NCBI GenBank assembly: GCA_009702965.1
Contig: WLHB01000009.1
Span: 1-42,026, forward strand
DNA from: Actinomycetota bacterium
GTDB taxonomy: Bacteria > Actinomycetota > Actinomycetes > Nanopelagicales > Nanopelagicaceae
Direction: 5' to 3'
DNA: 42,026 nt
The first letter of the stretch is position 1. Every line of letters begins with the position of its first letter. The position numbers were made by a program, and so were the translations under genes. Of this stretch, positions 34,424 to 37,643 are shown one piece after another. The notes under the pieces were generated by a model that was given only the letters and a program-made list of their open reading frames with translations, had not been told where the DNA came from and ran no database searches.

Positions 34424-35329
34424 TTAGACAGGAACTATTACTTGCTGCGCCGCACTTACGCCACCAACTATCAGCGTTGATTCAACTGGGGTGGTTCGCT
34501 TGATGATGGCTAGGGCGATCGGCCCGAGTTCGTGATGGCGAGCGACGGTTCCAAGGAATCCAACAGTGACGCCATTGTTTTCAACTGGAGTACCGGGATT
34601 TGGCATCACAACAGCGCTTCCATCAAGGTGGAGCATCACAAGACGACGCGGTGGATTGCCGAGATTAAATATCTTCGCCACAGTTTCTTGTCCGCGATAG
34701 CAACCCTTATTCATGTGAACGGCCCCGCCTAATACTCCAAGTTCATTAGGAATTGATTTGTGATCGGTATCAAAACCAATACGTGGACGCCCGGCAGCAA
34801 CGCGCAGCGCATCAAGTGCCCATGTGCCTACCTGCATTGCATGTGCATCAAAGGCGGTACGCATCTCATCTAATTCTGTGCGCGGAACAAGTGCGTACGG
34901 TCCACCGAGTTTGGTGGCGGCGCCAGGTGCGCGCAAGAGCGCAAACTCATCGCTGGCGTCCCGCACTTGAACTTGGCGGGTAAATATCATCTTTGTTAAA
35001 TACCCGAGCAAACCTTCACAGTAATCTGGTGAGACAACTAGCCAAGATGTTGATCCATCATCGACAAGTAAGAATTGATATTCAACATGTCCGCGTGGAT
35101 CCAAAACCATCACATCAACCCATTCGCCTGCAGGAAGTGCTGACAAATGTTGTGTTGTCACATCGTGTAACCAGGTCAGGCGATCAACACCTGCAACAGC
35201 AATAACTTTTAAATGAGAGAGATCTGCCCACGCTGTGCCTGCTTCAAGTGCGCGCTGTTCTTTATTGGGTTCGCCAAAGTGCCAGATAGCGCCTTTATCA
35301 GGGCCCTCTTCAACAAATACAGCGGTCAT
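34424..35329 (-). CDS. ygfZ: Folate-binding Fe-S maintenance protein YgfZ
   Basis: 301 residues from ATG 35329; the frame is open upstream to 35494 but those codons overlap the fur gene. GcvT-like fold that binds tetrahydrofolate and supports Fe-S enzymes such as MiaB. Signature KGCYRGQETVAK with the conserved Cys, plus LTWLHDVTTQHLS and MVLDPRGHVEYQF in the N-terminal half. TACACT lies 7 nt upstream. Downstream of fur and DUF4395 on the same strand. Confidence 0.9.
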   Translation of the reverse strand: MTAVFVEEGPDKGAIWHFGEPNKEQRALEAGTAWADLSHLKVIAVAGVDRLTWLHDVTTQHLSALPAGEWVDVMVLDPRGHVEYQFLLVDDGSTSWLVVSPDYCEGLLGYLTKMIFTRQVQVRDASDEFALLRAPGAATKLGGPYALVPRTELDEMRTAFDAHAMQVGTWALDALRVAAGRPRIGFDTDHKSIPNELGVLGGAVHMNKGCYRGQETVAKIFNLGNPPRRLVMLHLDGSAVVMPNPGTPVENNGVTVGFLGTVARHHELGPIALAIIKRTTPVESTLIVGGVSAAQQVIVPV

Positions 35330-35345: not shown

Positions 35346-35756
35346 CTACTTCTCCACACATGCTGCGCAGGTGCCATATATCGCAAAGTGCGTAACATCT
35401 GTCTTAAATCCATAATCATCAGCCAAGTTCTGCACGAAATTTGCTGCAGCATCGATAGGTGCATCACCCACGGATCCGCACTTTCCGCAGACAAGGTGCA
35501 GGTGCGTCATCTCTTCGGCTGCGTGATAGGTAGCACCACCATGTCCAAGGTGTGTGTGCTGAACGAGCCCGACATTTTCTAGAGTTTCAAGGTTGCGATA
35601 AACGGTAGATAAATTGATACCTGGATGCGTTTGACGCACACGCTCTGCCACCTCTTCAGGTGTTGCATGACCAAGTGATCGGACAGCAGAGAGAACAAGC
35701 TCTCGCTGAGGTGTCAGGCGCAAACCCTTATCGCGTAATTCGTGCTGTTCTGCCAT
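35346..35756 (-). CDS. Fur-family metalloregulator
   Basis: 136 residues. Winged-helix domain with RLTPQRELVLSAV and the recognition helix NLSTVYRNLETLENVGLV; dimerisation/metal domain with HLHLVCGKC and CAAC, so both Cys pairs of the structural zinc site are present. Could be Fur, Zur or PerR; the motif alone does not decide. TAGGAT lies 6 nt upstream of ATG 35756. Sits between DUF4395 and ygfZ. Confidence 0.92.
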   Translation of the reverse strand: MAEQHELRDKGLRLTPQRELVLSAVRSLGHATPEEVAERVRQTHPGINLSTVYRNLETLENVGLVQHTHLGHGGATYHAAEEMTHLHLVCGKCGSVGDAPIDAAANFVQNLADDYGFKTDVTHFAIYGTCAACVEK

Positions 35757-35779: not shown

Positions 35780-36217
35780 CTAATTCGAACGAATACGGGC
35801 TAAGAGGAGATACACCTGGCATCCGAGGCAGAAATCAAAGGCTGCATTGAGAAAGGCGGCAGCTAAAGCCGCGGCGACCGCGACAGTGAACACCATGGAG
35901 GTTCCTGTCGCAGCGCCGGCTATTGCGACAAGTGTAAAGGCAAGGCCAATTGACTGCGCAAACTTAGGTGGTCGCACATCTTCAGTGCGAAGCGGTGACT
36001 TCAAGCGAGGCTTAATCAATGAGCGGTAGATAAATGCATACGGTGTGAACTGTGGACCCTTTGTTGCACCGATTGCAAAGACGATCGCTTGAAAGAGTGC
36101 GACCCAGACCGAACCTGTAACAAGTGCTAACGCGAGAACTAGCGTTGTGATTGCAGCAGAAAAACGTGGACCACGTGCATCAATTTCAATTGACTTTACT
36201 GAAGTTACTGAACTCAT
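35780..36217 (-). CDS. DUF4395 membrane protein
   Basis: 145 residues with four hydrophobic segments: two in the first half around ALVLALALVTGSVWVALFQA and two in the second ending FLNAAFDFCLGCQVYLLL. The CLGC pair near the C-terminus suggests a redox or sulfur-related role; DUF4395 genes usually neighbour thioredoxins and sulfurtransferases. Function unknown. Start 36217 has GAGG 6-7 nt upstream. A leader peptide and hairpin (36235-36351) lie directly ahead, so expression is probably attenuated by cysteine supply. Confidence 0.85.
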   Translation of the reverse strand: MSSVTSVKSIEIDARGPRFSAAITTLVLALALVTGSVWVALFQAIVFAIGATKGPQFTPYAFIYRSLIKPRLKSPLRTEDVRPPKFAQSIGLAFTLVAIAGAATGTSMVFTVAVAAALAAAFLNAAFDFCLGCQVYLLLARIRSN

Positions 36218-36234
36218 TTTTTCCTCTTTTTGTC

Positions 36235-36278
36235 GTCGAATAATTAATTGTTTTTAAATTGCAACAATTACATTCGAC
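36235..36278 (-). promoter_or_regulatory. Attenuator-like hairpin between leader peptide and DUF4395
   Basis: Outer arms GTCGAAT (36272-36278) and ATTCGAC (36235-36241), inner arms TAATTGTT (36263-36270) and AACAATTA (36245-36252), 10-nt loop. The 5' arm starts inside the Cys codon of the leader and includes its last codons and stop. No U-run follows; the DUF4395 Shine-Dalgarno lies 8 nt downstream. A ribosome stalled at the Cys codon would block the stem. Confidence 0.7.
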
Positions 36279-36351
36279 ACAAAGCACCGGCTAAGCGTCC
36301 ATAGTCAATGACTCGGCGCTTGGTAAATAAGCCAGTAGAGATGCGTTGCAT
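36268..36351 (-). CDS. 27-residue leader peptide (cysteine attenuation type)
   Basis: MQRISTGLFTKRRVIDYGRL, then AGALCRM and stop. From memory this follows the pattern of actinobacterial leader peptides placed before sulfur-metabolism genes: (S/T)-(K/R)-R-R-x-x-D-x-x-R-x-x-x-A-L-C, with a Cys near the end. ATG 36351 lies exactly 6 nt after TACACT, so the mRNA would begin at the leader start codon. The UGU Cys codon lies in the 5' arm of a strong hairpin. A second, smaller hairpin (36293-36321) lies within the leader. The next gene is DUF4395. Too short for routine gene calling. Confidence 0.7.
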   Translation of the reverse strand: MQRISTGLFTKRRVIDYGRLAGALCRM

Positions 36352-36357
36352 GCCTTA

Positions 36358-36363
36358 AGTGTA
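36358..36363 (-). promoter_or_regulatory. -10 element of the leader peptide/DUF4395 transcript
   Basis: TACACT on the minus strand, 6 nt before the leader ATG at 36351. Confidence 0.5.
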
Positions 36364-36427
36364 AAGAAGGTTTGGCGATGTCGCTACTTGCGAAGACCTC
36401 GCAGAAAGTGCGGGCAGTGAGCGTGAA

Positions 36428-36841
36428 TTACTGAACGGCAGCAACGGCTGTGAGCACCTGGCTGCGCTTAGGTGTGCCCATCGCGCGTCCGACTTCGGTG
36501 CCATCGCGATTGAGAAAGAGCGTTGTTGGCGTTGAAAGAATATTGAGCTGACGAACAAGTTCAAGATGTGATTCGGCATCGATATGGGCATAAGCAACAT
36601 CGGGCATTGTCTGCACCATCTGCTCAAGCAGAACACGCGTTGCCCGACATGGTGAGCAGAAGGCAGATGAGAACTGCACCATCGTGACTCGCTCGCCGAG
36701 TGCGATACCAATCTGATCCGATGTCAGACGCGGCCCATCCACTGTCTTCTTACGGCGAAATTCACCGCGAGTGTGGCGAAACCAGATGCCAAATACGCTC
36801 GCTGCAGCCAATACGGCAAGGAGTGGAAGTACTGATTTCAC
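36428..36841 (-). CDS. Membrane-anchored thioredoxin-like protein
   Basis: 137 residues. N-terminal membrane helix (VLPLLAVLAAASVFGIWF, residues 4-21), then a thioredoxin fold with active site CSPC in FSSAFCSPCRATRV and the cis-Pro loop STPTTLFL. Probably faces the cytoplasm if the basic FRHTRGEFRRKK after the helix is inside; orientation is inference. Start is GTG 36841 with GAGG 8 nt upstream. Between glnR and the DUF4395 leader, matching the mycobacterial thiX-glnR-mshD order. Confidence 0.88.
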   Translation of the reverse strand: MKSVLPLLAVLAAASVFGIWFRHTRGEFRRKKTVDGPRLTSDQIGIALGERVTMVQFSSAFCSPCRATRVLLEQMVQTMPDVAYAHIDAESHLELVRQLNILSTPTTLFLNRDGTEVGRAMGTPKRSQVLTAVAAVQ

Positions 36842-36929: not shown

Positions 36930-37643
36930 ATGGCAAAGGTATTGCTATTAACAAACTCCGCTGGCGCCAGCGCGCAGGTTCTTCCAGCACTTGGACTTTT
37001 GCAACACACAATCAAAATTCTTCCGCTCGAAGCATCTGTATTAATCGATGCACCAGTGATGGATCTTGTCTTTATCGATGCACGCACCGATCTTCCAAAC
37101 GTGAAGAGCTTTTCAAAGTTGCTCACTACAACTGGAGTAAGCGCACCTGTCATTGCAATTACAACTGAAGGTGGCCTCAGCGCATTCACATCTGAGTGGG
37201 GTCTTGATGATGTCATGCTCGATACCGCAGGCCCTGCTGAAATCGAAGCACGCATTCGCATTGCAATTGGTCGACGCGATGCCGCACACCTTGCAAGTGA
37301 TCCAACTGCACATGAAATTCGTCAGGGTGATGTTGTTATCGATGAAAACACATACACCGCAAAGATTAAGGGTCGCTCACTCGACCTTACCTTTAAAGAA
37401 TTTGAATTACTCAAGCACTTCGCCCAACACCCAGGTCGCGTCTTTACTCGCGCACAGTTACTGCAAGAGATCTGGGGCTATGACTATTTCGGTGGTACTC
37501 GCACAGTTGATGTTCATATTCGTCGCCTTCGTTCAAAACTTGGCCCAGAGTTTGAATCAATTATCGGAACTGTCCGCAACGTTGGTTATCGCTTCACACT
37601 TCCATCGAATGGAAAAGATAGCCCCGTAGCTGAGCGCATCTAA
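36930..37643 (+). CDS. glnR: Nitrogen regulator GlnR (atypical response regulator)
   Basis: 237 residues. Receiver-like domain with retained Asp (D50, VFIDARTD) but lacking the acidic pair and the conserved Lys; the segment [20 protein letters not shown] is characteristic of GlnR. Winged-helix domain from about 135 ([44 protein letters not shown]). Orphan regulator of nitrogen genes in actinobacteria, with no cognate kinase. Its stop overlaps the start of the mshD-like gene (TAATG). No clear -10 at leaderless spacing. Confidence 0.92.

Follow-up and report, generated by a model that had tools for sequence, protein, structure and literature searches.

Does the short reading frame in front of the DUF4395 gene of an acI actinobacterium encode a regulatory leader peptide, and what would such a leader sense and control? 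The question arises in a stretch of 42,026 nucleotides (the window; contig WLHB01000009.1 of assembly GCA_009702965.1, Nanopelagicaceae), where a first-pass annotation made from the letters alone had proposed a cysteine-codon attenuator. Compared with related loci, the frame is a real, conserved regulatory leader peptide. Its best reading, which we consider likely, is that of a translational attenuator of DUF4395, leaderless and with one cysteine codon, which varies the theme of the polycysteine attenuators of mycobacteria. The comparisons behind this reading concern the frame, the peptide, the promoter spacing, the hairpin, the codon bias and the conservation of an operator.

On the minus strand, the leader frame (36351-36268) consists of 27 codons followed by UAA and would encode MQRISTGLFTKRRVIDYGRLAGALCRM; family matches and relatives both point to it. 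The -10 hexamer TACACT (36363-36358) is located exactly 6 nt before the ATG at 36351, as the first-pass annotation had described, and this spacing is conserved in relatives. The putative sensor codon, UGU at 36279-36277, is likewise conserved and is the single cysteine codon of the window leader, which has no run of consecutive cysteine codons. The leader ATG has no Shine-Dalgarno sequence (SD) ahead of it. Within 36150-36500 a plain sigma-70 scan returned no -35/-10 pair, so the promoter call depends on the conserved -10 spacing. In 54 non-identical DUF4395 leaders (67 before identical regions were merged, genome searches included), TANNNT ends 5-7 nt ahead of the start codon in all 54, it occurs at the other gaps listed in 0 to 5 of them, and an SD-like string before the start codon was found in 0/54. 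These comparative data support a leaderless start, with the leader frame presumably opening at the 5′ end of the mRNA.

The proposed regulated gene (35780-36217, minus strand) encodes a DUF4395 protein (PF14340, E=5e-42) and has the SD AGAGG at 36227-36223 of the same strand, as read directly. Six helices are predicted for the protein (pLDDT 90.6), and the predicted fold had no match in the PDB at E<=0.001. The next gene on the minus strand encodes a Fur-family regulator (35346-35756; PF01475, E=7e-25) and the third a GcvT/YgfZ-like protein (34424-35329, start at 35329 picked by reading; PF01571, E=3e-19). Upstream of the leader there is a thioredoxin-like gene, and a GlnR-like regulator (36930-37643, plus strand) and an acetyltransferase lie there in divergent orientation. 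The first-pass annotation had suggested that the leader links cysteine to metal regulation through fur and ygfZ. Such control is unsupported: fur follows DUF4395 after a 23-nt gap with a plausible SD of its own, and both genes are found downstream in related loci with as well as without the leader. The sulfurtransferase gene that had been described as missing is absent from the window locus, and a search of the 76%-complete own genome, run without a positive control, gave no match. In the closest relative, L003, it stands between DUF4395 and fur; the gap is longer there and the insert encodes a rhodanese and a DUF1416 protein according to Pfam. The DUF4395-fur inserts look alike in the eight loci read.

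The leader matches two NCBIfam profiles below their curated cut-offs, NF042933 leader_Ms5788A (E=1.8e-5, 24.3 bits, cut-off 45 bits) and NF042934 cis_reg_atten, 'putative leader peptide' (E=0.0028, 17.3 bits, cut-off 27 bits). In the latter, 18 of the 19 profile positions of the core are matched, and this leader is the sole NF042934 match in the own genome (76% complete) even at E<=10. Across Actinomycetes, the Ms5788A model has matches at E<=0.001 in 107 of 148 genomes, with a match above the cut-off in 22. The best-scoring 30 class-level leader loci all have DUF4395, rhodanese and/or DUF1416 downstream. Hairpins could be tested in 24 of the 30 and are weaker there (mean z -1.4, 14 below -1), and TANNNT is located 6-8 nt before the tried start codon in 12 of the 30. 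Because the L003 insert encodes rhodanese and DUF1416 and the eight inserts are alike, the window leader occupies the corresponding place. The kinship to actinobacterial sulfur leaders that had been proposed in the first pass is thus borne out by the profile matches and by this corresponding place before DUF4395-rhodanese in other Actinomycetes.

Experimental backing for attenuators of this kind comes from M. smegmatis, in which cysteine attenuation by polycysteine leaders was reportedly described by Canestrari et al. in 2020, as relayed by papers that cite it. The window leader resembles these Ms5788A-type attenuators in being a presumably leaderless short frame with a C-terminal Cys and a core like LTKRRxVDxxRxxxxLC, and in its position at a sulfurtransferase locus, a feature seen in relatives (the window has no sulfurtransferase gene). 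A further likeness, according to citing papers, would be the blocking of the SD, relieved by a stalled ribosome. The window leader differs in having one Cys codon instead of a run, a score below the family cut-off, no sulfurtransferase, an extra pairing in the coding region and an acI-specific operator. Its one Cys codon and its score under the threshold lead us to treat it as a variant and not a member of the mycobacterial cysteine attenuators. Excerpts of earlier work describe a Cys-rich uORF ahead of cysA2 in mycobacteria (PMC4633059) and predicted Cys leader peptides before cys operons in Actinobacteria (PMC1262725). The predicted leaders share with ours a short frame with Cys codons close to the stop and a place before cysteine genes, but the excerpt of PMC1262725 gives them consecutive Cys codons and reports no hairpin conserved among them. 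Such a leader in acI was not reported among the literature matches listed.

A DUF4395 search of public genomes gave 71 loci, and a scan that did not require Cys found the leader before DUF4395 in 37 of them, with Cys in every leader. These comprise 33 loci with the strict pattern, L053, in which Cys is displaced by one residue, and L049, L060 and L061, which were added by the Cys-free scan; the scan recovered 34/34 known leaders, and its pattern still demanded R-x-[VIALMF]-[DE]. The remaining loci are 18 from acI without the leader, 10 others outside acI, four cut too near upstream (L018, L037, L041, L059) and two in which no thioredoxin gene was labelled at the expected position (L030, L048). 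In L003 the frame, the Cys codon and the hairpin are kept and one residue is changed (CRM to CQM). The peptide frame and Cys codon proposed in the first pass are thus found intact in the relatives that carry the leader, and by this comparison the presence of the leader before DUF4395 is not due to chance. Three copies of the window (L001, L002, L117) were excluded. L054 does not figure in the hairpin tests, the alignment or the codon-bias count (n=51 Cys) but was retained for the pN/pS and spacing counts; the alignment used 50 of 53 references. Records titled Bifidobacterium breve or Streptomyces griseus (L005, L010, L028, L029, L031) contain acI-like DNA and are misnamed metagenome bins.

Both the peptide and its codons appear constrained. 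Since the search pattern for the 54 leaders required RR, D and C, the full conservation of these residues is partly by construction. The core residues K, RR, D, R, L and C are kept in 13 aligned leaders, the core recurs in other families, and the Arg three residues past the Asp, which the pattern did not demand, is found in 52/52. The uncorrected pN/pS over 52 distinct cores is 0.22, and third positions are free at Thr, Arg and Val, with four codons used for Thr and four for Val. All this would also suit a nascent-peptide arrest, in which the TKRRxIDYGRLAxSLC chain stalls the ribosome from within the exit tunnel, senses cysteine, a thiol or sulfide and acts through the same hairpin. Conservation of the peptide extends beyond the Cys codon, more than a pure codon sensor would call for, and this counts against our preferred reading. 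Several of the conserved codons are, however, synonymously biased as well: Cys is UGU in 48/51 (background 0.42), Leu is UUG in 35/45 (0.18), Ser is UCU in 24/41 (0.19), and bias is also seen in Lys AAG (49/50), Ala GCT (26/40) and Val GTA (23/47). The bias of the Ser-Leu-Cys codons goes beyond the amino acid, and their bases are predicted to pair towards the SD. RNA constraint would therefore explain part of the peptide conservation, and we regard peptide arrest as an unlikely explanation.

The minimum-energy fold places a hairpin directly upstream of the DUF4395 SD. Its 5′ arm (36283-36263, minus strand) includes the Cys and stop codons, its 3′ arm (36252-36229, segment 3) is followed directly by AGAGG, and the 21 pairs form three stacked blocks of 8+8+5. 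The hairpin of the first-pass annotation is thus present and ends just before the SD, while its size of '7 + 8 bp' was too small and its 5′ arm begins slightly ahead of UGU rather than at it. In the window the hairpin abuts the SD and does not cover it. The whole-leader fold has z = -3.9 (200 dinucleotide shuffles); when the intergenic part alone is shuffled, the window hairpin has z = -3.6, with 1 of 100 shuffles as low, and the hairpin of L130, a copy of the L003 leader, z = -1.5 with 7 of 100. Intergenic-part shuffles in 53 leaders gave a mean z of -2.8, with z < -1 in 50 and z < -2 in 40; the values above -1 belong to L111, L055 and L035. The base-pair covariation that the first pass had named as a check was hardly found, as RNAalifold returned no consensus pair for the 50-row MAFFT alignment and 14 pairs, two of them doubly changed, for a 13-row subset. 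Hairpin arms of varying length seem to be misaligned in the 50 rows, and per-sequence shuffles and swaps were used for this reason. Swapping leader tails and intergenic regions among 20 clusters modestly favoured the native combination (Fisher p=0.007, median rank p 0.25); for the window, 4 of the 19 swaps did as well as the native combination. Rfam gave no relevant match.

To model a stalled ribosome, we masked a footprint reaching from 15 nt before to 11 nt after the first base of the Cys codon, which is our own assumption, with UGU in the A site. The predicted openness of the SD region rose from a mean of 0.46 to 0.56, being higher in 29 and lower in 11 of 53 leaders (p=6e-4); for the window leader it went from 0.52 to 0.78. 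The average opening predicted is small and the window hairpin stops short of the SD, and both points count against the attenuator.

Transcriptional attenuation within the leader, Rho-dependent or other, in place of SD blocking seems improbable, more so than peptide arrest. The excerpt of PMC1262725 suggests a role of Rho at those mycobacterial cys leaders that have no conserved hairpin, and the leader-DUF4395 region folds differently in L050, L055 and L056. The conserved hairpin here, however, adjoins the SD and is followed by A-rich sequence. A scan of 36150-36500 found no intrinsic terminator with a U-run in the leader, and its sole terminator-like site falls inside DUF4395. Translational control fits better than intrinsic termination because of this lack of a terminator. 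The three deviating loci have, between leader and DUF4395, a GC-rich hairpin GCCCGCGT[CT]AGCGGC unlike that of the other loci, which may attenuate transcription instead; in L050 and L056 a T-rich stretch follows it.

A second pairing is predicted inside the leader, between its first codons (segment 1, 36325-36351, minus strand) and the codons around Leu-Cys (segment 2, 36274-36294, minus strand). The leader coding region folds more stably than after synonymous randomisation (mean z -1.95, 16 of 20 below -1) and than GC-matched versions (mean z -1.81, 14 of 20 below -1). In a swap test of 25 leaders out of 20 clusters, some of them hence not independent, native pairing of the codons before TKRR with those around Leu-Cys was better than the swap average in 23 of 25 (Wilcoxon p=6e-7, Fisher p=4e-4, median rank p 0.14); in the window 0/48 swaps were as good as native. 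The inner pairing may give part of the SD-hairpin arm another stretch to pair with, the arrangement known from classical three-segment attenuators, but the predicted competition is weak. Strict competition with the SD hairpin was considered and found weak, with hairpin pairs up in 30 and down in 15 of 53 leaders (p=0.015). Predicted SD openness was unchanged between the free and the initiating-ribosome state (p=0.57), and between the initiating and the stalled ribosome it went up in 27 and down in 18 (p=0.034).

Of the proposed cysteine-codon attenuator, then, the leader, the codon and the hairpin are backed by comparative data; translation of the leader, stalling, the response to cysteine, the direction of control and operator binding are inferred. 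The leader probably turns on the sulfur-linked DUF4395 gene when cysteine is short. RNA polymerase would start at the leader ATG, so that the first ribosome would load at the 5′ end. With ample cysteine the ribosome would pass the single UGU, meet the stop codon 9 nt on and depart, upon which the Leu-Cys-Arg-Met-stop codons would pair with the stretch before the DUF4395 SD and hinder initiation. When Cys-tRNA is scarce, a ribosome stalled at UGU would hide the 5′ arm and block the hairpin, and DUF4395 would be translated. Pairing of the first leader codons with the Leu-Cys codons probably modulates this switch. Its sensitivity could be low, since there is one Cys codon and not a run.

A candidate operator, TGCGAGGTCTTCGCAAGTAG (TGCRA-N5-TYGCAANTNG; 36384-36403, minus strand), lies 41 nt upstream of the leader start and probably adds transcriptional control. 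Its half-site YGCAANT is found 38-50 nt before the start codon in 53/54 leaders, at 41 or 42 nt in 50 of them; mononucleotide shuffles gave an expectation of 0.4 of 54. The own 76%-complete genome contains one match to the full pattern, ahead of this leader. Across nine genomes, 12 of 15 matches precede a leader, DUF4395 or cysK and the other three are one recurring leader-free site; the reversed pattern gave four matches, equalling the count of the true pattern in two genomes. Among 121 family genomes, 90 have an operator match, and the reversed control has 10 matches in eight genomes. Thirty operator loci were fetched from the family genomes: 17 are before DUF4395 or cysK, one (L205) is before a gene that reads like O-acetylhomoserine sulfhydrylase (metY-like), and the remaining 12 look coding or unrelated. 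The operator was also observed at L184-L191, L195-L199, L203, L204, L208-L211 and L222-L227. In the 30 class-level loci, YGCAANT was found in none of the 75-nt stretches before the tried start codon. Upstream of the leaders of L081, L087, L090, L094, L095 and L100, at the place of the acI operator, there are GTCTCA...TGAGAC-like palindromes or half-sites, possibly the site of another regulator.

Sibling leaders stand before other sulfur genes of acI genomes, whose names, where finer than Pfam domains, are our own reading. They precede cysK-cysE-like genes in L142, L146 and L150, and leader starts were seen before such genes in L222, L223, L225 and L227. Others (L134-L138, L140, L147) precede a second rhodanese with a signal-like N-terminus, which is probably exported; a sulfur transporter follows it in the four loci read (L134, L137, L140, L147), and in L137, L140 and L147 the leader itself is equipped with an SD-like stretch. 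By Pfam, L150 has PALP and hexapeptide-transferase domains, L134 and L147 have rhodanese, and L134 has Sulf_transp (PF04143) as well.

The 18 acI loci without the leader count against the attenuator as well, and they form with the leader-bearing loci what appears to be an unexpectedly clear evolutionary series. All 18 have the half-site YGCAANT, and in 17 of them an in-frame DUF4395 start is located 38-42 nt after it and 6-7 nt after TANNNT, with no SD. These 17 loci lack the attenuator, and transcription from the promoter would yield a DUF4395 mRNA that is itself leaderless. L017, which is the exception, and the loci L184 and L185 from two other genomes are missing the leader and have kept an SD-like stretch; compared with L186, the latter two have kept operator and promoter, and the leader with its hairpin is gone as one block of about 120 nt. 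The leader might accordingly be thought merely to load ribosomes on a leaderless mRNA (translational coupling) and to sense no cysteine, as the leaderless start is constant and DUF4395 itself takes the leaderless position in those 17 loci. This leaves the fixed Cys, the synonymous bias of Ser-Leu-Cys and the hairpin unexplained, and we find it very improbable.

On a quick tree of 43 loci, in which gain and loss are indistinguishable, there are at least 5-6 changes in the presence of the leader and 8 in that of the sulfurtransferase, judged from the DUF4395-fur gap. L003, the sister of the window, has leader and sulfurtransferase; the next relative, L008, has neither. Of the 43 loci, 11 have the leader with and 17 without sulfurtransferase; the corresponding numbers without the leader are 6 and 9. 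No leader-sulfurtransferase association was seen, but the independent pairs are only 5, too few for a verdict.

The single-cysteine attenuator of DUF4395 could belong to a small cysteine regulon of acI with two stacked controls, an operator-binding regulator and a removable three-segment single-cysteine attenuator that is toggled in evolution. We offer this wider picture tentatively, at somewhat less than even chances. If true, the regulator binds TGCRA-N5-TYGCAANTNG before cysK-cysE, DUF4395 (with or without sulfurtransferase) and perhaps the O-acetylhomoserine sulfhydrylase-like gene, and the attenuator sits between a fixed leaderless promoter and the gene. Lineages would then repeatedly lose, or regain, the whole attenuator, the same promoter yielding the gene's own leaderless mRNA, so that attenuation is toggled on and off while the transcription start stays put. 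New here are the candidate operator, the putative sibling leaders before cysK-cysE and rhodanese-sulfur-transporter pairs, the predicted second pairing inside the leader, and the acI loci that appear to be without the whole attenuator and have a like promoter directly ahead of DUF4395.

The host, a member of the acI Actinobacteria, is a common freshwater bacterium. An excerpt of PMC5301498 reports four cultured acI strains without assimilatory sulfate reduction, which would therefore need reduced sulfur. With a cysteine-sensing ribosome ahead of their genes for rhodanese, DUF4395, cysK and sulfur transporters, these bacteria would illustrate how sulfur supply is still regulated in some very small free-living cells. 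The leader may give lake metatranscriptome studies a molecular marker for cysteine stress, and the attenuator-free loci would be natural experiments on what attenuation contributes.
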